From: Anaerolineae bacterium
GTDB lineage: Bacteria; Chloroflexota; Anaerolineae; Aggregatilineales; Phototrophicaceae
Direction of reading: 5' to 3'
Assembly (NCBI GenBank): GCA_022823945.1
Contig: JAJEBK010000022.1
Location: forward strand, 124,001-188,000
DNA length: 64,000 nt
The notes beneath the pieces were generated by a model. That model was given only the letters and a program-made list of their open reading frames with translations. It was not told the DNA's origin and did not search any database. Made by a program: the position numbers and the translations under genes. Shown here piece after piece: positions 3,225 to 55,990 of the stretch (position 1 is the stretch's first letter; each line of letters starts with the position of its first letter).

Positions 3225-4103
3225 ATGGCGCAAATGGAGTTCTTCATTGTTGATGTCTTCACCATCGGGCGCAAATACACCGGCAACCAGTTGGCTGTTT
3301 ACCTGGGCAACCCACCGACAGCGCTGATGCAGCAACTGGCGAAAGAGATCAACTTTTCCGAGATCACATTCGTCACCGCCGATTCACCGGAAAATGGCGG
3401 CTATAACACACGCATCTTCATGCCCGAGGTCGAGGTCGACTTCGCTGGCCATCCCGTTTTGGGCACGGCGTATATCATCCAGCGCGAACTGATTGGCGCG
3501 CCGGTCGACGAACTGGTCTTGAACCTGCGGCTGGGGCAGATCCCAGTGACATTCGGAGCGGATGGCGTGCTGTGGATGCGCCAGAATCCGCCGCGATTTG
3601 GGCATCAATTCTCCGCGGTGGACATGGCTCGCGTGCTCAATATCGCCGCGGATGACATTGATCCGCGCTTTCCGGTCATGGAGGTATCGACAGGTTTGCC
3701 ATTCGTGCTGGTGCCGCTGGTCTCGCTGGATGCGCTGCAGCGAGCCTGGGTCAACCTCGACCGACTGCGGGCGCTGCTCGGCGCACACGAGGCGATTGGG
3801 CCGGCTGTCTTTTGCCGCGAGACGCTTCATGCCGAAAATGACATCCATGTGCGCGTTTTGGATGATGTCTATGGCGCGCCAGAAGACCCGGCCACAGGCA
3901 GCGCCGGCGGCTGCATCGCGGCTTATATGCTGGAATATGGCTATTTTGCAGGAAGTGAATTGCGGCTGCGCGCAGAGCAGGGTTATCAAATCGGCCGACC
4001 ATCGCTGTTGCATCTGCGGGCCAGCCGCGCATCGGGCGAGATTGCCATCCGCGTCGGCGGGCAGGTCGAGCTGGTGGCGCAGGGACGACTGGCATCGGAC
4101 TGA
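3225..4103 (+). CDS. PhzF-family isomerase-like protein
   Basis: Protein of 292 residues of the PhzF phenazine-biosynthesis-like family, with the diaminopimelate-epimerase fold. The catalytic glutamate is E46 in NFSEITFV; the family motifs DFAGHPVLG (72-80) and DPATGSAGG (around 221-229) are both intact. Most PhzF homologues outside phenazine clusters have no known substrate, and no other phenazine genes are present. The gene begins one base after the nitrilase stop and is read in the same operon. The start at 3225 was chosen because it follows the upstream stop directly and has AAGGGG upstream; an ATG at 3234 is an alternative. Confidence 0.8.
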   Translation: MAQMEFFIVDVFTIGRKYTGNQLAVYLGNPPTALMQQLAKEINFSEITFVTADSPENGGYNTRIFMPEVEVDFAGHPVLGTAYIIQRELIGAPVDELVLNLRLGQIPVTFGADGVLWMRQNPPRFGHQFSAVDMARVLNIAADDIDPRFPVMEVSTGLPFVLVPLVSLDALQRAWVNLDRLRALLGAHEAIGPAVFCRETLHAENDIHVRVLDDVYGAPEDPATGSAGGCIAAYMLEYGYFAGSELRLRAEQGYQIGRPSLLHLRASRASGEIAIRVGGQVELVAQGRLASD

Positions 4104-4121
4104 ACAACGAGGAGAGCGAAA

Positions 4122-5093
4122 ATGGACTACCGCATTTTGGGTCGCACAGGCGTGAAGGTATCGCCGCTTTGCTTCGGCACGATGTCCTTTGGCGATATCG
4201 CCGACGAAACCGAATCGGCGCGCATGTTCAACCGCTGCCGCGATGTCGGCATCAACTTTTTCGATTGCGCCAATGTATACGCTGGTGGTCGCTCGGAAGA
4301 GATTCTGGGCGGGCTGATCGCCGGCTGCCGTGATGATATCGTGCTGACGACCAAGGCGGTTTCCAGCACGGGGGGCGATATCAATGCGGGCGGCGCGTCG
4401 CGGCGGCATATTCAGCTGGCGGTGGAAGACAGCCTGCGTCGGCTCAATACCGATCGCATCGATGTTTACTTCTTGCACCATTATGATGCCGATACGCCTG
4501 TAGACGAGATGCTGCGCGCGCTGGACGATCTGGTTCGGCAGGGCAAGATCCTCTACCCGGCGGTCAGCAATTGGGCGGCTTGGCAGGTGATGAAAGCGCA
4601 GGGTATGGCGGCGCAATCTGGCTATGCGCGCATTGAATGCTTGCAGCCGATGTACAACCTGGTCAAGCGCCAGGCGGAAGTTGAAATCTTGCCTATGGCC
4701 GCGCAAGAGCAGATCGGCGTTATCCCCTACAGCCCGCTGGGAGGCGGCTTGCTGACCGGCAAATATGGGCGCGAAACACAACCACAATCGGGCCGTCTGA
4801 TCGAAAACAAGATGTACATCAAGCGCTATGGTCCAGCCGATTATCATCAGACTGCTGCCGACTTCGCCGCGCACGCCGCAGAACGAGGCTATGCGCCGGC
4901 CACCTTGGCAGTGGCTTGGGTGATGGCGCACCCGGGCGTGACGGCGCCTATCATCGGCGCTCGCAATCTGGCGCAGTTGGAAGACTCGCTGGCCGCGCTG
5001 GATGTGGAATTAACAACGGAGTGGTATGCGGAAATCACAGCGCTTTCTGCCACCCCACCGCCAGCGCACGACCGGCTGGAAGAGGTTCGCTAG
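4122..5093 (+). CDS. Aldo/keto reductase
   Basis: NAD(P)H-dependent oxidoreductase of 323 residues with the AKR barrel. The expected catalytic residues are D48 (FFDCANVY), Y53, K78 (LTTKAV) and H119 or H120 (FLHHYD). A conserved C-terminal stretch (APIIGARN) fits the cofactor-binding end of the barrel. GAGGAG lies 8-9 bases before the ATG. It is the last gene of the amine-type operon, 18 bases after the PhzF gene, and could reduce the aldehyde made by the amine oxidase. That role is inferred from position only. Confidence 0.85.
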   Translation: MDYRILGRTGVKVSPLCFGTMSFGDIADETESARMFNRCRDVGINFFDCANVYAGGRSEEILGGLIAGCRDDIVLTTKAVSSTGGDINAGGASRRHIQLAVEDSLRRLNTDRIDVYFLHHYDADTPVDEMLRALDDLVRQGKILYPAVSNWAAWQVMKAQGMAAQSGYARIECLQPMYNLVKRQAEVEILPMAAQEQIGVIPYSPLGGGLLTGKYGRETQPQSGRLIENKMYIKRYGPADYHQTAADFAAHAAERGYAPATLAVAWVMAHPGVTAPIIGARNLAQLEDSLAALDVELTTEWYAEITALSATPPPAHDRLEEVR

Positions 5094-45006: not shown

Positions 45007-45351
45007 ATGAACTTGAAGCGACTGTTGCAGGTGTTGCCGGGCGCATTGTTTCGCTCGTCTCTACAGAAGGAGCGCGACTTCTTCGGCCGTTATCGCCTGC
45101 TGTGCGAGAACATCGCCGCGGAGCCCGGAAACTTGACCTTGCGCGTTGTGCGTGGCGAGATGCTGCTGGAGCGGCGCGACTACCAGCGAGCGCGCGCCGA
45201 CTTTGAAGCTGCGCTGCGCATGAGCGAGTCGCTGGATATGCGGGCTGGCTGGCTGATTGAAGAACAGGTCATGCGCGACCGAGCGCTCTTTGGACTGGAA
45301 GTTGTGGCGCGCCATCTGCCGGCTGCGACTGCGACTCATGCGGAGGCATAA
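45007..45351 (+). CDS. Small TPR-like protein inside the nuo operon
   Basis: Soluble protein of 114 residues, not a known complex I subunit. Its central part (LRVVRGEMLLERRDYQRARADFEAALRM, about residues 45-73) fits one tetratricopeptide repeat; flanking helices may complete the fold. It starts three bases after the nuoF stop, and its own stop TAA overlaps the base before the nuoG ATG, so it is surely co-transcribed and coupled. A role in assembly or stability of the NuoEFG module is plausible but only inferred from position. Confidence 0.7.
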   Translation: MNLKRLLQVLPGALFRSSLQKERDFFGRYRLLCENIAAEPGNLTLRVVRGEMLLERRDYQRARADFEAALRMSESLDMRAGWLIEEQVMRDRALFGLEVVARHLPAATATHAEA

Positions 45352-47904: not shown

Positions 47905-49485
47905 ATGAGCCTAAAAGTAAAGCTGGGCATCGCGGCAGCTGTCATCGGATTGTTGGTTACATTGCTGGTTGTTGTGTTGATTATCGTCAACCTGGGTGCC
48001 ATCGCCGACTGGGTCGGCTTTGACGAAGCGGGCAACCTGGACGGACGCCAGGGCGCGATCGGCATGCTGCTGAATCCCGAAGCCCGCGTGGGCAAAGTCA
48101 TCCAATGTGAAGACGATGCTGGCTGCTCGGGGCTTTGGCCCATCATTTTTGCGGCTGGTTTTGCTTTTGTCATCGTCACCGGCTTTGCCTATACGACGCT
48201 GCTGGAACGCCGCCTGCTGGCTTTCTTGCAGCATCGCGTGGGACCCAATCGCGTCGGTCCGCTGGGCTTCATGCAGCCGGCCGCCGATGGCGTCAAGCTG
48301 GTTTTCAAAGAAGATTTGCTGCCCGCGGGTGCCGATAAGTGGGTCTTCCGCCTCGCGCCCATGATCAAGGTCATCCCGATTTTGATGATCGCGGCTGTCA
48401 TACCCATGGGTCCCGACCTGGTGCTGCCCTGGTTCGCGCCGGAGCTGGGCGATGTCTGGTTCCAGGTGCCACAGGGATTGATTGATTCCAATGTCGGCGT
48501 GTTGTGGGTGGTCGCCATCACGAGCATCGCCACTTACGGCGTCGTCCTGGCTGGCTGGTCGAGCGACAACAAATACGCCATGCTGGGCGCGCTGCGGGCA
48601 TCGGCGCAGATGATCAGCTACGAGCTCAGTTTTGCCTTGACGCTGGCGGTGCCGGTCATGATCGTCGGCAGCATGGCGCTGGGAGATATCATCGATGCGC
48701 AGCGCAACATTTGGGACTGGTTCGTATTCCAAAATCCGCTGGCGGCCGCCGTCTTGCTGCTGGCGCTGCTGGCAGAAACCAACCGCGCTCCCTTCGACCT
48801 CACCGAAGCCGAGCAAGAACTTACGCAGGGCTACATGACCGAATACAGCGGCATGAAGTTCGCCTTGTTTATGATGGCGGAATACCTGGGCATGATTGCG
48901 GTGAGTCTGGTGGCGGTCGCGATGTTCTTCGGTGGCTATCATCTGTGGCCCATGGATGGATTGCCCATCCTTGCCCCGCTGATTTTCATCATCAAAGTCG
49001 TGCTCATGCTCTGCGGCATGATCTGGATTCGCGCGACCCTGCCACGCATACGCTATGACCGGTTGATGCAATTTGGCTGGAAGGTGATGATCCCGCTGGC
49101 GCTGCTGGCGGTGGCTTGGACGGCGGTCGCTGTTGTAGTTGGCGAGGCTCTGGGTGGCACAGCCTATCCATTCATCTCGGGCGTCGTGTTCGTGCTGGCG
49201 CTGCTGCTCGGCTATGTGGCTTTGCAACGAATGAGCCGGGAGCGAGCCAGCGATATCGCCATTCCGCTGGAGGACGACCCCGCCTACACCGGCGAAAGGC
49301 GCGGATTGGGCTGGGCGCTGGTGCATCTGGTTGGCATGCTGGTGGCGATCCCGCTGGCGCACATCCGCTTCCAGGTGCGCGCATTGGAAGGCATGGCCTC
49401 CTTCGGACGAACGCCCGACGAAGACCGCGCCCTGCAAAGCAGCGAAACAGCCATCAAACGTGCCGGCGACTACTTATCCGAATGA
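47905..49485 (+). CDS. nuoH: NADH-quinone oxidoreductase subunit H, extended
   Basis: Membrane subunit of 526 residues that forms the quinone channel with NuoB and NuoD; typical members have 320-420. Core blocks are LERRLLAFLQHRVGPNRVGPLGFMQ (100-124, given here in part), AETNRAPFDLTEAEQEL and EYSGMKFALFMMAEY. It has an extra N-terminal membrane span (7-38) and a loop with C68 and C74 before the normal first span. About 60 residues beyond the last core span end in a soluble tail. AAAGGA lies before the ATG. Confidence 0.93.
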   Translation: MSLKVKLGIAAAVIGLLVTLLVVVLIIVNLGAIADWVGFDEAGNLDGRQGAIGMLLNPEARVGKVIQCEDDAGCSGLWPIIFAAGFAFVIVTGFAYTTLLERRLLAFLQHRVGPNRVGPLGFMQPAADGVKLVFKEDLLPAGADKWVFRLAPMIKVIPILMIAAVIPMGPDLVLPWFAPELGDVWFQVPQGLIDSNVGVLWVVAITSIATYGVVLAGWSSDNKYAMLGALRASAQMISYELSFALTLAVPVMIVGSMALGDIIDAQRNIWDWFVFQNPLAAAVLLLALLAETNRAPFDLTEAEQELTQGYMTEYSGMKFALFMMAEYLGMIAVSLVAVAMFFGGYHLWPMDGLPILAPLIFIIKVVLMLCGMIWIRATLPRIRYDRLMQFGWKVMIPLALLAVAWTAVAVVVGEALGGTAYPFISGVVFVLALLLGYVALQRMSRERASDIAIPLEDDPAYTGERRGLGWALVHLVGMLVAIPLAHIRFQVRALEGMASFGRTPDEDRALQSSETAIKRAGDYLSE

Positions 49486-50097: not shown

Positions 50098-51480
50098 ATG
50101 GAATGGCTGTTCTTGGTGGTGAGCATAGTGGCAGTCGTGGCGGCTGGCATGATGCTGACGCGGCAAAATGCTGTGCACAGCGCGCTCTTCCTCATTGTCA
50201 ATTTTGGCTGCGTCGCCTTTCTGTATCTGATGCTGGATGCGCCTTTTCTGGCCATGGTGCAGGTCACGGTCTACACCGGCGCCATCATGGTGCTCTTTCT
50301 GTTTGTTATCATGCTGCTGGGCGCAGAGACGACCACCGATGCCACTGGACGCATGCGCTGGCTGGGCTTGGCTGGTTCGCTGGTGGCTATCGCGCTGCTG
50401 ATGATCTTCGCCTTCCCAATCGCCTCGGACATGCTCAATGACGAGGCTGTCGATGGCGGCGATGCGCGCGCCAGCCTGCGGCTCATCAATGCCGTGCCCG
50501 GTGGCGATGAGCAGGGTTTCCGCGTGCTGGAAATGGGCTTTGAGATGCCCTTGACGGACGAAGTCGCCGCGAGCGTGAACCTGGCGGGACTGGATGATGG
50601 CAGTCCCGGCGCTTCCATAGAAGCCGTCCGTTACAACGATGAGCGAGCGCGCAGCCGCGACTATACCGATTTCCCTGCCGGCGACTACACACTCTCCGCG
50701 ACCGTCAGCGATGGCAGCTACGAATCGTCCGATGTGTTCAGCGCGACCGTCAGCCTGGCAGCCGAAAGCGCGCATACCGTGCTGCTTTATCAAAATGCTG
50801 ATGGCTTGCTGGAATACGTCCTGCTGGAAGATGACATCCATGCGCCGAGCGTGGGCACGATGCGCCTTACGCTGGTCAACGGGCTGGCGGATAAACAGGT
50901 TTCGCTGGTCGATGTCGGGCAATACACCACCATCCGCAGCTTGTGTGAGAATGGCGCATGCAGTTCGCTGCTGCCGCATCGCGTGTTGATCGACCAATTG
51001 CCGCTGGGCGACCAGATCAGCATTGAACTGGACGAGGGCGATTACAACCTGGCTTTTGTCGACCAGGACCAAACTGTGTTGCGCATCCTCGCCGACTACA
51101 AAGCCGAGCGTGGCGTCATCGAAACGCGGGTGCTGGCGCGCGAGCCAGGCGTGCCCGGCAGCCAGCCGACTTATCGAGCGGCTGTGTATCACGCTTTTGC
51201 CATCCCCGCCTTTGGCAGCCCGGAAGCGGTCGGTCAAGTGCTTTTTATAGACTATGTGCTGCCGGTGATGTTGGTCGGCGTGCTGTTGCTGGTGGCCTTG
51301 ATCGGCGTGATCGTGCTGGCGCGCCCCGATGCCCTGGCACAAGCCGAGCGCCGCCGCATTAACCGCCGCCGCAGAGTCAACCGCCCGCTGGTCAGTGTGA
51401 TCGCCCAGCAAACCGGTGCCGATGTACTCAGCGGAGAGTATATGCCCAAATTGACGCCCGGCGACGAGCCAGCCGATTAA
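50098..51480 (+). CDS. nuoJ: NADH-quinone oxidoreductase subunit J with a large extracytoplasmic insert
   Basis: Protein of 460 residues; NuoJ is usually 165-200. The first four spans (residues 1-110) include the NuoJ motif VQVTVYTGAIMVLFLFVIMLLG, and the fifth (379-408) is GQVLFIDYVLPVMLVGVLLL and onward. Between them, residues about 112-372 form an insert without membrane spans. Two segments resemble DUF4397 repeats: SLRLINAVPGGDE with FPAGDYTLSATVSDG, and TMRLTLVNGLADKQVSL with LDEGDYNLAFVD. The pair C283 and C288 (CENGAC) could form a disulfide. The basic C-terminal tail marks the cytoplasmic side, which places the insert outside the membrane. Confidence 0.9.
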   Translation: MEWLFLVVSIVAVVAAGMMLTRQNAVHSALFLIVNFGCVAFLYLMLDAPFLAMVQVTVYTGAIMVLFLFVIMLLGAETTTDATGRMRWLGLAGSLVAIALLMIFAFPIASDMLNDEAVDGGDARASLRLINAVPGGDEQGFRVLEMGFEMPLTDEVAASVNLAGLDDGSPGASIEAVRYNDERARSRDYTDFPAGDYTLSATVSDGSYESSDVFSATVSLAAESAHTVLLYQNADGLLEYVLLEDDIHAPSVGTMRLTLVNGLADKQVSLVDVGQYTTIRSLCENGACSSLLPHRVLIDQLPLGDQISIELDEGDYNLAFVDQDQTVLRILADYKAERGVIETRVLAREPGVPGSQPTYRAAVYHAFAIPAFGSPEAVGQVLFIDYVLPVMLVGVLLLVALIGVIVLARPDALAQAERRRINRRRRVNRPLVSVIAQQTGADVLSGEYMPKLTPGDEPAD

Positions 51481-51838: not shown

Positions 51839-54370
51839 ATGGAAAATCTGCCACTCCTGGTCCCGCTGGTCATTTTCGCCCCTGCGCTCGGGGCGGCGGT
51901 GAACTTCTTCTTTGGCGCGCGCCTGGGCGAAAAGTGGTCGGGCTATATCGGCTGCTTCGCCTCGCTCTTCGCTTTTGTGGTTTCGCTGCTGCTGCTCGTG
52001 TATGTAACCGGCACGAATGGCGCGGCCGCGGTGGTCAATCCGCCATTTCTGGATGGCTGGCTGCGCATCGAGTCTATAAACCTGGATATCGGCTGGCAGC
52101 TGCGCGTGGATTCGCTCAGCGTCACGATGATGCTGGTGGTCACGGGCGTCGGCTCGTTGATCCACTTGTATGCGCGCGGTTATATGCACGGCGACAAATG
52201 GTATCCGCGCTTCTTTGCCTATTTGAATATGTTCCTGGCTTTCATGCTGACCCTGGTGACCGCCAACAACTTCCTGATGCTGTTTGTCGGCTGGGAAGGC
52301 GTGGGTTTGTGCTCATTCTTGCTGATCGGCTTTTGGTGGGACAAAAAAGCGCCCGAAGGCTGGAAGAACAGCAATGCCGCGCGCAAAGCCTTCATCGTCA
52401 ACCGCATCGGCGATTTTGGCTTGCTGGTGGCTATGTTTTTGATCTTCTGGACATTTGGCACGCTGGATTTCTTCAAAGCCGGCGAGTTGCCAAATACCAG
52501 CGCCAAGTATCTGGTGGGCTGGCAAGAACATAACGGGCTGTTGGCGCAGGCAGATGATGACCATGACGACGCGAGCGATGACGGGCATGGCGCAAAAGCC
52601 GTCTGTGTGCCAGCCGCGCAGCGCAGCGTCGACACCCACGAATCCGCCTCTGCCGACGACGATCACAGCGCATACGACACGCACAGCGCGCCCAATCCGC
52701 TGGCATCGGACATTCGCAACCTGTATTGCGACAACCAGCATTTTGACAGCGCGATGCTGGGCGTTTTCGGACAAACTGCCGATCGCTTTGGCACAGACGC
52801 TGTGGTTGACTTCGGTGGATTCCAACTGGCTTTTGACGATGTGATCTTCCTGGCAGCTCTGTTTATGCTGCTGGGCGTGGCGGGCAAGTCGGCGCAGATA
52901 CCGCTATTTGTGTGGCTGCCCGACGCCATGGCGGGACCAACTCCCGTCAGCGCGCTCATCCACGCAGCCACTATGGTGACGGCGGGCGTCTACATGATGG
53001 TGCGAGCCAATGTCTTCTTGTGGGAACTAAATCACGCTGGCTACATCATCGGTTTGATTATCACGCTGGTCGGCGCGGGCACGGCCATCATGGCCGGCTT
53101 TATCGCGCTGGGACAGTGGGATATCAAGCGCGTGCTGGCCTATTCGACCATCTCGCAGTTGGGCTTTATGGTGGCCGCGGTGGGTATCGGCGCCTATGTC
53201 GCGGCGATGTTCCACCTGGTTACGCACGCGGTTTTCAAAGCACTGCTCTTCCTGGGCAGTGGCTCGGTGATTCACGGCGTCGAGCATGGCCATCATCATG
53301 CGCATAGCCATGATCATGGCGACGACCACCATGACGAAGTCTCCCCACATCCCGATGGGGGAACAGCGGGGGGGCATGACTTCGACCCGCAAGATATGCG
53401 CAACATGGGCGGCCTGCGGCGGCGCATGCCAATCACCTATATCACCTATCTGATTGGCACATTGGCGCTGGCGGGCATCTTCCCTTTCGCCGGGTTCTGG
53501 TCAAAAGACGAGATCCTCGCCGATGCCTGGTATGAGGGCTTCCAGCTGAACGAAGCCAGTGGTTTCATCGCCTTTGGCGTTCTGCTGATTGCGGCGGCTT
53601 TCACAGCCTTCTACATGTGGCGGCAGATTGTGCTGGTTTTCTTCGATGATGCGCGTAGCGAAGCGGCAGAGCGCGCGCCCGAAAGCAATGGCGCCATGCT
53701 GCTGCCTTTGTTGGTGTTGGCGATCTTTACGCTGCTGATTGGCTTTATCAATGTGCCCAAAGCCACGCCGCTATTCGATGGCATTTATCATGCCTATGAG
53801 TTCAAGCACTTCCTCGAGCACAGCGTATCCAGCGTCTCGAAAGGCCATGTGCTGGACTTCAACCTGTTGATCGCCGGTATTGCGCTGGCGCTGGGTATCG
53901 CATCCATCATCGCGGCGCACCGCATCTACAAGGGCAAGGGGCTGGCCAGCAACAAACGCGACCAGTTGGAGACGGGCGGCGCATCGCGGCCTCTCTTCCG
54001 CCTGGCGAATGCTCGCTTGTATTGGGACGAGATCTATGCCAGCGTAATTGAGCAGCCCTTCAATCGTGCGGCTGGCTTCCTGGCTGACCGCGTCGACTGG
54101 GCGTTCTTGCACGATTATTTTCATGACAGCCTCATCAAGCGCGGCTTCGACAGCATCGCCACGCTGCTCAGCCAGCCAATTGATCTGGGCATTGTGGATG
54201 GCGCGGTGAATGGCGTGGGAGCGCTGGTGGAGCGCGCTGCCAGTTGGATGCGCCGCTCGCAGACCGGCTATGTCCGCTTGTATGCGATCGTGCTTTTCTT
54301 TGGCGTTGCCGCGGTGATCGTGCTGATGCTGCTGCCATTTATTCAGTCCCTGCTGCAAACTGGCTCTTAA
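51839..54370 (+). CDS. nuoL: NADH-quinone oxidoreductase subunit L, with two extra loops
   Basis: Antiporter-like subunit of 843 residues; usual length is 610-680. Core blocks FVGWEGVGLCSFLLIGFWW, VGKSAQ-like AGKSAQIPLFVWLPDAM and TPVSALIHAATMVTAGVY carry the proton-channel residues. An insert at about 214-330 is rich in D and H and has C256 and C297. A second one at about 483-513 carries eleven histidines in 31 residues (start HGHHHAHSHDHGDDHHDE) and includes the in-frame mini-repeat copy D. The long amphipathic C-terminal helix region is present. Confidence 0.93.
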   Translation: MENLPLLVPLVIFAPALGAAVNFFFGARLGEKWSGYIGCFASLFAFVVSLLLLVYVTGTNGAAAVVNPPFLDGWLRIESINLDIGWQLRVDSLSVTMMLVVTGVGSLIHLYARGYMHGDKWYPRFFAYLNMFLAFMLTLVTANNFLMLFVGWEGVGLCSFLLIGFWWDKKAPEGWKNSNAARKAFIVNRIGDFGLLVAMFLIFWTFGTLDFFKAGELPNTSAKYLVGWQEHNGLLAQADDDHDDASDDGHGAKAVCVPAAQRSVDTHESASADDDHSAYDTHSAPNPLASDIRNLYCDNQHFDSAMLGVFGQTADRFGTDAVVDFGGFQLAFDDVIFLAALFMLLGVAGKSAQIPLFVWLPDAMAGPTPVSALIHAATMVTAGVYMMVRANVFLWELNHAGYIIGLIITLVGAGTAIMAGFIALGQWDIKRVLAYSTISQLGFMVAAVGIGAYVAAMFHLVTHAVFKALLFLGSGSVIHGVEHGHHHAHSHDHGDDHHDEVSPHPDGGTAGGHDFDPQDMRNMGGLRRRMPITYITYLIGTLALAGIFPFAGFWSKDEILADAWYEGFQLNEASGFIAFGVLLIAAAFTAFYMWRQIVLVFFDDARSEAAERAPESNGAMLLPLLVLAIFTLLIGFINVPKATPLFDGIYHAYEFKHFLEHSVSSVSKGHVLDFNLLIAGIALALGIASIIAAHRIYKGKGLASNKRDQLETGGASRPLFRLANARLYWDEIYASVIEQPFNRAAGFLADRVDWAFLHDYFHDSLIKRGFDSIATLLSQPIDLGIVDGAVNGVGALVERAASWMRRSQTGYVRLYAIVLFFGVAAVIVLMLLPFIQSLLQTGS
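53341..53374 (+). repeat. GC-rich mini-repeat copy D, inside nuoL
   Basis: Begins CTCCCC, then CATCCCGATGGGGG and ends in a run of seven G. It shares CATCCCGA plus two G-runs with copy B, and the layout with copy A. It encodes SPHPDGGTAGG within the histidine-rich loop and keeps the nuoL frame. Confidence 0.5.
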
Positions 54371-54385
54371 GGAGAACGCAGCCCT

Positions 54386-55423
54386 ATGGATGTAACTGGA
54401 CTCTCGCTGACGACCATCACCCTCTTCTTGCCGATGCTGGGGCTTGCCATTCTGATGTTTATGAATGGCGAAACGCAGCGGGAAAATCTCAAGTGGGTGG
54501 CTTTTGCGACCAGCCTGGTGACCTTTGTGGCATCGGTGGTGATGTGGATCAACTTCGACCCCGCCACAGCCGAGTTGCAAATGGTGCAGCGCAATACCTG
54601 GGCAGAGGTGTCGCTTGGCGACTCTGCCATCAATATCAGTTATTTTGTCGGCGTCGATGGCATAAGCATGCTGCTGGTCCTGCTGACGACCTTCATTATG
54701 CCCATCGCCATACTAGGCTCTTTCGGCAGTCATATCTTTGAAGAACGAGGACGCGAGAAGCTGTATTACATCTTCCTGATGCTGCTGGAATGGGCGATGA
54801 TCGGCGTTTTTGTCGTGCATGATTTGATCATCTTCTATGTCTTTTGGGAAGTTACCCTGGTGCCCATGTACTTCTTGATCGGCATTTGGGGCAGCGAAGA
54901 ACGCATTTACGCCGCTGTCAAATTTTTCTTGTACACGATGGCCGGCTCCATCCTGATGCTGATTGCCATTCTGTATATCGGCAACACCACTGGCACCTTC
55001 AGCACCTACAGCGCGAGCGGAGATGTCGGCGTCATCGAGATGGTCCAGTCTCACGAAGGCGCTGGCACCTATTGGGATGCCGCGGACGCCGAAGCAGAAG
55101 GCGATCCCGGCTTCCTTTTCAGCTCGGTAGAAAGTTTCCTGTTCCTGGGATTCCTGGTCGCCTTTGCCATCAAAGTGCCGATTTTCCCCTTCCACAGTTG
55201 GCTGCCCGATGCGCATGTGCAAGCGCCGACAGCCGGCTCGGTCATATTGGCTGGCGTGTTGCTGAAGATGGGCACCTATGGAATCGTGCGCTTCAACCTC
55301 AACCTGTTTCCTGAAGCGACCGTGGCCTGGGCGCCGACAATCGCCTTTTTGGGTGTGGTTGGCATCATCTACGGCGCGTGGGTCAGCTATGCGCAGAACA
55401 ATGTCAAGAAGCTGGTCGCCTAG
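54386..55423 (+). CDS. nuoM: NADH-quinone oxidoreductase subunit M, 5' part (ends at an in-frame TAG)
   Basis: First 345 residues of NuoM, an antiporter-like proton channel of the membrane arm. It contains FYVFWEVTLVPMYFLIGIWG, IKVPIFPFHSWLPDAHVQAPTAGSV (in part) and LLKMGTYGIVRFNLNLFP, all intact. The frame then stops at TAG (55421-55423) directly after KKLVA, where the family continues YSSVSHLGF. The continuation lies in the same frame (next entry). AAGGAG lies before the ATG. Alone it lacks the last spans and would not be a complete subunit. Confidence 0.9.
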   Translation: MDVTGLSLTTITLFLPMLGLAILMFMNGETQRENLKWVAFATSLVTFVASVVMWINFDPATAELQMVQRNTWAEVSLGDSAINISYFVGVDGISMLLVLLTTFIMPIAILGSFGSHIFEERGREKLYYIFLMLLEWAMIGVFVVHDLIIFYVFWEVTLVPMYFLIGIWGSEERIYAAVKFFLYTMAGSILMLIAILYIGNTTGTFSTYSASGDVGVIEMVQSHEGAGTYWDAADAEAEGDPGFLFSSVESFLFLGFLVAFAIKVPIFPFHSWLPDAHVQAPTAGSVILAGVLLKMGTYGIVRFNLNLFPEATVAWAPTIAFLGVVGIIYGAWVSYAQNNVKKLVA

Positions 55424-55429
55424 TCGTAG

Positions 55430-55990
55430 GTCAGCCACCTTGGCTTCGTCGGGCTGGGCATCTTCGCGCTCAATGCGCAGGGCTTGCAGGGCGCGACGCT
55501 GCAAATGGTCAATCACGGCATCAGCACGGGCGGCTTGTTCCTCATTGTGGGCATGCTTTATGAACGGTGGCACACCAAAGAAATGGCTGACTTTGGCGGC
55601 ATCTGGAAAGTCATGCCCGTCTTTGGCGGCATCAGCCTCGTCATTTCTTTGAGCAGCATGGGCTTGCCGGGCTTGAATGGCTTCATCGGCGAATTCACTA
55701 TCTTGCTGGGTTCGCTGGGCAGCGATTTTCTGGGCTTTGCTTTCACGCTATTTGGCACCCTGGGCGTCATTCTGGCGGCGGTCTACCTGCTGAAGATGTT
55801 CCAGCATGTGTTCATGGGCGAGTTGAAGAAGCCGCTGAAGGACGAAGAGGGCTATAAACTGCGCTGGCACGAAATCGCGGCTTTCATCCCGATTCTCATC
55901 ATGATCTTCTGGATGGGCATCCAGCCTATCGTCTTCTTCAACATGCTGGATATCTCGGTCGATAGCATCGCGGCGCTCTTCGTTCGCTAG
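55430..55990 (+). pseudogene. nuoM: NADH-quinone oxidoreductase subunit M, 3' part (same frame, after two TAG codons)
   Basis: In-frame continuation of NuoM: VSHLGFVGLGIFALNAQG, then MVNHGISTGGLFLIVGMLYERW and GMPGLNGF-like GLPGLNGFIGEF. Codons 346 and 348 are TAG (55421-55423 and 55427-55429), where Y and S are expected. Reading through both would give a normal NuoM of about 534 residues. Possible restarts are a TTG at 55484 and an ATG at 55505, neither with a good ribosome site. It is either a disrupted gene or a sequence error; suppression seems unlikely because TAG ends many genes here. Confidence 0.8.

Follow-up and report, generated by a model that had tools for sequence, protein, structure and literature searches.

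A probable tandem DUF4397 pair inserted in the complex I subunit NuoJ of an Anaerolineae bacterium and its relatives

The core subunits of respiratory complex I are highly conserved, and the bacterial enzymes represent its minimal model. In the present study, we analysed a stretch of 64,000 nucleotides from an Anaerolineae bacterium (contig JAJEBK010000022.1), called the window below, whose nuo operon encodes a NuoJ of unusual length. Spans 1-4 and span 5 of this protein align with those of NuoJ, ND6 and Nqo10 in solved structures (E. coli 3rko, T. thermophilus 4he8, M. smegmatis 8e9g and plant Nad6 7aqq). The matched parts run to residue 125 and resume at 139 in M. smegmatis NuoJ, and run to 124 and resume at 135 in plant Nad6, leaving 13 and 10 residues between them; these two chains agree with the preliminary description of the locus, which took short loops to be normal in NuoJ. 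About 260 residues lie between the same parts in the window NuoJ, so that roughly 240 of the insert residues are extra.

Core-subunit extensions and a NuoG loop of E. coli complex I have been reported to share space with the supernumerary subunits that other species possess, and to stabilise the enzyme (PMC8357420). These G-loop and C-terminal additions are lineage-specific and lie on the peripheral arm, whereas the NuoJ insert lies in the membrane arm, probably at the outer face, and represents a pair of recognised domains. Two tandem Ig-like domains inserted in a membrane transporter, where they are extracellular, have been described for PepT1 and PepT2 (SLC15A1/2; PMC4597091), which belong to another protein family and another kingdom; PepT binds trypsin. 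The insert profile matched PepT1 (5a9d) weakly, with an E-value of 0.0034 and a best single-domain i-E of 0.042, and a profile including span 4 matched PepT2 (7pmy) at 3.8e-5. A weak match to AlgF (6czt) was also observed, at 0.0077, and a PDB search with the insert sequence alone gave no match at E<=10. The likeness to PepT is a weak one and is treated as an analogy, since a domain i-E of 0.042 is too weak for a claim of homology.

The nuoJ gene and its insert

The features of the locus are collected in Table 1. Oxidored_q3 (PF00499) matched NuoJ in Pfam with an E-value of 3e-37 and 128 bits against a cut-off of 33.2. The gene belongs to a nuo operon that also encodes NuoG, NuoH, NuoI, NuoK, NuoL, NuoM and NuoN, and it occupies the usual position between nuoI and nuoK. 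The NCBIfam NuoJ equivalogs also matched the protein, with scores below their cut-offs, presumably because the insert splits the alignment. Hydropathy analysis revealed five spans, four within residues 1-114 and the fifth at 377-416; residues 112-372 contained no span, the maximum of hydropathy over 19 residues being 1.17. Lys and Arg number 17 in the insert against 42 Asp and Glu, and a strongly basic stretch lies in the C-terminal tail. These results bore out the preliminary description, which had reported a non-membrane insert of about 260 residues with spans 1-4 and span 5 left intact. The span 4-5 loop of 261 residues departs from the short loop of an ordinary NuoJ, and the protein is therefore a variant of NuoJ. 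It is best read as a bona fide NuoJ of a respiratory complex I that carries a probable tandem DUF4397 pair. The insert is not a separate gene or chain, as it is read in the same open frame as NuoJ, free of stops, in 34 same-genus genomes. It is not a supernumerary (accessory) subunit, and it may work like one.

Table 1. Features of nuoJ and of the neighbouring NuoH and NuoL (window positions)
Feature	Position	Strand	Basis or remark
nuoJ	50098..51480	+	intact open frame, 460 aa; nuoI-nuoJ-nuoK order in nuo operon
NuoJ residues 1-111, transmembrane spans 1-4 (Oxidored_q3)	50098..50430	+	Pfam, hydropathy
NuoJ residues 112-372, acidic span 4-5 loop insert, no membrane span	50431..51213	+	Pfam, hydropathy; absent from matched NuoJ of solved complexes
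First DUF4397 unit, residues about 124-252	50467..50853	+	Pfam at 187-262; nearly whole unit in relatives
Second DUF4397-like unit, residues about 253-364, more constrained half	50854..51189	+	hhalign, dN/dS, 3 relatives
CENGAC, C283-X4-C288, possible disulfide	50944..50961	+	sequence, homologue counts; near homologues only
NuoJ span 5, about residues 377-411	51226..51330	+	NCBIfam match, hydropathy
NuoJ basic C-terminal tail, expected inner face	51331..51477	+	charge pattern
NuoH Cys pair C68-X5-C74 before first canonical span, probably same outer face	48106..48126	+	sequence
NuoL loop before GKSAQ helix, greatly expanded, Asp/His-rich, probably same outer face	52475..52810	+	sequence; approximate borders

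DUF4397 (PF14344) was detected by Pfam at residues 187-262 of the window NuoJ with an E-value of 1.2e-8 and 35.9 bits, and the insert used alone as query gave 2.1e-9. Both bit scores, 35.9 and 38.4, exceeded the gathering cut-off of 30.6; Pfam recognised no second copy in the window's own sequence. An alignment of 122 sequences was then split into residues 124-250 and 253-364, and hhalign of the first half against the second gave a probability of 92.8% and an E-value of 5.6e-8 (122 sequences, without a shuffled control). When nine insert-bearing relatives were scanned singly, DUF4397 was above the cut-off in eight, with 87.3 bits in L094, and just short of it in L028 (29.2 bits); three of the nine (L092, L093 and L098) showed two Pfam stretches. 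DUF4397 was further found at E<=0.01 in 26/26 diverse insert-bearing NuoJ proteins, the best E-value being 1.5e-24. Both Pfam domains were annotated in 119 of the 120 best homologues of 1814 matches, P0089 having PF00499 only, and in 120/120 of the best matches listed of 3690 in a profile search. Collectively, the Pfam match of the first unit, the hhalign result and the relatives with two stretches upheld the two DUF4397-like segments proposed earlier, and the match above the cut-off excluded the alternative, raised at the same time, that the insert has no domain similarity. From this homology and the weak profile leads described above, we infer that each unit is an Ig-like beta-sandwich, which would make the insert beta-rich. 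The insert alignment contained only three nearly invariant positions (R, G and R), so no conserved binding site is visible.

Selection on the insert was estimated by the Nei-Gojobori method from 15 non-independent pairs among six genus members. The dN/dS values were 0.18-0.35 for the insert and 0.01-0.11 for the membrane part, and the second unit was below the first in 15/15 of these non-independent pairs. The insert is thus under purifying selection in the genus, and its faster evolution relative to the membrane part is as expected if its contacts are loose or changing.

Some other features of the operon and genome were recorded. In nuoM (window 54386-55990), two in-frame stop codons are separated by one codon; the gene reads through without a stop in 4/4 same-genus genomes examined (G003, G030, G027 and G014), and the stops reflect either a genuine interruption or a mistake in the assembly. 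Between nuoF and nuoG (window 45007-45351) lies a small gene of 114 aa whose likeness to TPR stays below the Pfam cut-offs. Elsewhere in the genome, COX1 is split over two adjoining open frames (G000:C9:34003-35321), possibly through an assembly error. A second complex I-like cluster (L119, G000:C42:69900-80900) encodes a NuoJ of normal length (170 aa), together with a NuoL-like frame of 1067 aa and two frames that resemble NuoM; a second, weaker NuoJ match was present in 30/34 same-genus genomes.

Distribution and history of the insert

The surveys covered samples of the genus, order, class and phylum, all within Chloroflexota. The order was taken as Aggregatilineales from the names of homologues, namely Aggregatilineales bacterium, Ca. 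Thermofonsia Clade 1 and Aggregatilinea lenta. A full-length match to the insert-bearing NuoJ was found in 34/34 sampled genomes of the genus. In the order sample, 142/151 genomes had a NuoJ match at E<=1e-14, 140 of them among the matches listed. Frame length was used as a proxy for the insert, the domain itself being tested on the 26 diverse members and by database annotation. NuoJ frames of at least 380 aa occurred in 126 of the 140 listed genomes and were distributed by family as f1 88/88, f3 16/18, f4 5/5, f7 9/10 and f8 8/10; they were absent from f2 (0/6), f5 (0/1) and f6 (0/2). G070 and G136 lay outside the 140, and the NuoJ of G070 measured 422 aa. The insert-bearing families contained five short frames, of which four were cut by contig ends (in G058, G084 and G089 NuoJ runs off the contig after the insert has started, and in G056 the cut is judged by coordinates) and one, in G096, was a true absence.

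In the class sample, 153 of 249 genomes had a match, and long frames were present in all 15 matched members of the order; outside the order there were 138 matches, and among the 135 listed the two frames over 380 aa were ordinary NuoJ lengthened by an upstream extension. The phylum sample gave a NuoJ match in 81 of 301 genomes. No DUF4397 insert in NuoJ was found outside the order among the matches listed in the class and phylum samples. The insert is characteristic of most of the order Aggregatilineales and is not peculiar to the genome of the window. The survey of NuoJ lengths also revealed no relative with two separate genes, and a fusion or frameshift artefact was ruled out by the same unbroken frame in 34/34 same-genus genomes. 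A recent foreign insert was ruled out as well, since its GC content (0.59-0.63) is near that of the surroundings (0.55-0.62) and the insert is order-wide.

Several long frames outside the order were inspected and rejected. G278 (L115) and G631 (L139) encode an ordinary NuoJ in an upstream-extended frame; L139-L142 and L144 (G631, G457, G563, G512 and G479) measure 162-168 aa from match start to stop; in L143 (G535) the loop is ordinary and it is the C-terminus that is extended; and G402 and G351 (L116 and L117) have ordinary loops. In G401 (L114, frame 3447-4442) and G443, from one other Chloroflexota family, this NuoJ loop also holds an insert, of about 110 residues and unrelated to the one described here. 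Pfam detected no DUF4397 in the insert of G401, which matched a P2 domain just under the cut-off.

Those relatives of the genus that bear names are MAGs of Chloroflexi and Anaerolineae, several of which come from sponges. Two cultured species carry the insert. Aggregatilinea lenta (P0202; G087/L092) has a NuoJ of 399 aa, and Phototrophicus methaneseepsis ZRK33 (G099/L088; PMC8941918) has one of 482 aa with a DUF4397 E-value of 2.8e-12. Upregulation of NADH-quinone oxidoreductase genes has been reported in the latter strain (PMC11005417).

An operon tree was built from NuoI, NuoK, NuoL, NuoM and NuoN of 38 loci. The insert bearers formed one clade with a support of 0.63, a label that may have shifted on re-rooting; this clade adjoins f5 and f6, then f2, all with short loops, and the relationships of f1 were poorly resolved. 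L108 (G096), without the insert, was nested with other f3 loci with a support of 0.999. The distance from the end of span 3 to FGSP was 58 residues in L108 versus 253-256 in two f3 relatives; among the outgroups it was 54-58 in three f2 loci and 55 in one f6 locus. One gain early in the order and one clean loss, in G096, appears to fit both the operon tree and the loop lengths. Because L108 lacks the insert and is nested among carriers, the core presumably works without it.

This single natural absence among carriers would also suit a neutral passenger, that is, an insertion tolerated in a permissive loop and held by folding constraint only. The same may be said of the unrelated insert of G401 and G443 and of PepT, from which the analogous domains were removed with no appreciable loss of transport (PMC4597091). 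We consider a passenger very unlikely, because five families retain the insert, only one of the complete frames listed for them lacks it, and its dN/dS values are well under 1.

We further compared 75 single units, comprising 26 first units, 26 second units and 23 from other proteins of the order. In the unit tree, the second units formed one group (26/26, support 0.98), and the other units intermixed slightly with the first. The simplest account of this tree would be a single insertion of a ready-made pair. DUF4397 places, counted as single domains and including those of NuoJ itself, were present in 56/61 order genomes, with ten or more in 29/61 and up to 26 in one (G042). A signal-like hydrophobic N-terminal segment was recognised by eye in 7/7 other DUF4397 proteins read in the order, each with at least two units; the tandem units were found with a profile built from the NuoJ units, and FAS1 or SH3 neighbours accompanied two of these proteins that were scanned by Pfam. 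Tandem units are thus common to the secreted-looking proteins and to the window NuoJ, but the former begin with a signal-like N-terminus and the window pair lies inside a polytopic respiratory subunit. No other DUF4397 match was found in the window's genome at E<=1.

The abundance of DUF4397 places in many genomes of the order, together with the appearance of the insert as a pair transplanted from signal-bearing proteins of at least two units with FAS1 or SH3 neighbours, would be consistent with an envelope anchor. The pair would bind an S-layer, matrix or other surface protein in the manner of the secreted-looking DUF4397 proteins and would tether complex I to it. We regard such an anchor as unlikely: a partner that was itself a DUF4397 protein would be missing from the window's genome, yet the NuoJ copy is still under selection in the genus.

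The outer face and possible roles of the pair

By the positive-inside rule, the basic tail of NuoJ would be inside and the span 4-5 loop outside, which agrees with the topology of E. coli NuoJ. The charge pattern and the secreted-looking relatives suggested that the DUF4397 pair is probably outside the membrane; the outer-face placement made in the preliminary description is in keeping with the acidic insert, the basic tail and the signal-like N-termini seen by eye in the seven relatives. It agrees as well with a reported link between residues 142-145 of E. coli NuoJ and the periplasmic surface (PMC8357420).

Two neighbouring subunits also depart from the ordinary form. In NuoH (window 47905-49485), the first canonical span is preceded by an additional hydrophobic segment and a CX5C loop, and NuoL has a long Asp/Glu/His-rich loop before the GKSAQ helix; by the usual topology, both the NuoH segment and the NuoL loop would face outward. 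Within the insert clade, the CX5C pair was present in 21/21 loci whose NuoH N-terminus is complete, among them L108; the clade further contains nine loci with partial NuoH and three with none. A CX3C pair was found in 3/3 loci of f5 and f6, and no Cys pair was found in f2 (0/3), nor in any of five loci from outside the order in which the span motif was located. On this tree, the NuoH pair predates the NuoJ insert and persists where the insert has been lost. In L091 (G075), the NuoH frame measures 741 aa, with the canonical first span near residue 272 and hydrophobic stretches before it. Several relatives have Glu/His-rich low-complexity repeats in the NuoL loop, a possible metal-binding stretch.

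The CENGAC cysteines of NuoJ show a narrower distribution. A CX4C pair was conserved in 120/120 near homologues (P0001-P0120, 59-97% identical) and in 0/119 more distant ones (P0138-P0256), P0121-P0137 being outside the count. The number of Cys residues in the insert of the near set was always even (two in 116 and four in four), which fits a disulfide. The CENGAC pair noted earlier lies at C283 and C288; it belongs to the near homologues only and cannot be a general function of the domain. Its constancy and even numbers in the near set, with the NuoH pair in every insert-clade locus whose NuoH N-terminus is complete, would also suit a redox or disulfide switch, built on C283-C288 and the NuoH pair, by which the cell senses its surroundings. 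We consider this highly improbable, as the distant homologues lack the NuoJ pair and a structural disulfide explains the observations more simply.

It is conceivable, and in our judgement doubtful, that the entire outer face of complex I has been remodelled in this order, the NuoJ pair, the NuoH Cys pair and the NuoL loop forming an outward platform of core subunits alone through which the enzyme is physically coupled to a partner in the envelope or the respiratory chain. If true, this would be a regulated or anchored outside contact unlike any known to us in a studied complex I. In another reading, the pair binds a bc-type complex, an oxidase or a soluble carrier at the outer face as a supercomplex or electron-carrier dock. 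The genome encodes cytochrome b (E 3.1e-37) and COX1 (E 1.5e-91), indicating that a respiratory chain is present; aerobic chains are, however, widespread in bacteria without such an insert, and we think a dock of this kind distinctly unlikely.

We are modestly inclined, largely by analogy, to the reading that the pair is an outward, non-catalytic beta-sandwich tandem with which complex I is braced or docked. According to this reading, the tandem pair would have been inserted once, early in the order, into the short outward span 4-5 loop. It would act as a non-catalytic module making contacts at the outer face of the membrane arm, which is the least certain step, and would serve either as a brace for the NuoH-NuoJ region or as a docking site for an envelope protein or an adjacent complex. 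The pair would thereby take on, in cis, a role that belongs elsewhere to separate accessory subunits of the outer face, and neither proton pumping nor quinone reduction would depend on it. Bracing or docking rests on analogy because the Pfam description gives DUF4397 no known function; the faster evolution of the insert, the genome without it (G096), the few invariant positions and the weakness of the PepT lead count against it.

In the open literature, we found no report of a NuoJ insert or of a link between DUF4397 and NADH, and no DUF4397 paper that names complex I in the title or in the opening lines of the abstract; subscription papers were mostly outside the search, so this absence is not proof. 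The combination is already in databases as Pfam annotation under plain "subunit J" names, and is undescribed in the open literature found. The pair provides a first cellular context for DUF4397. Its natural gain and natural loss can be compared, and the insert is present in two cultured species. A domain pair stably kept in a core subunit indicates that the membrane arm of complex I can be elaborated in cis, probably at its outer face.
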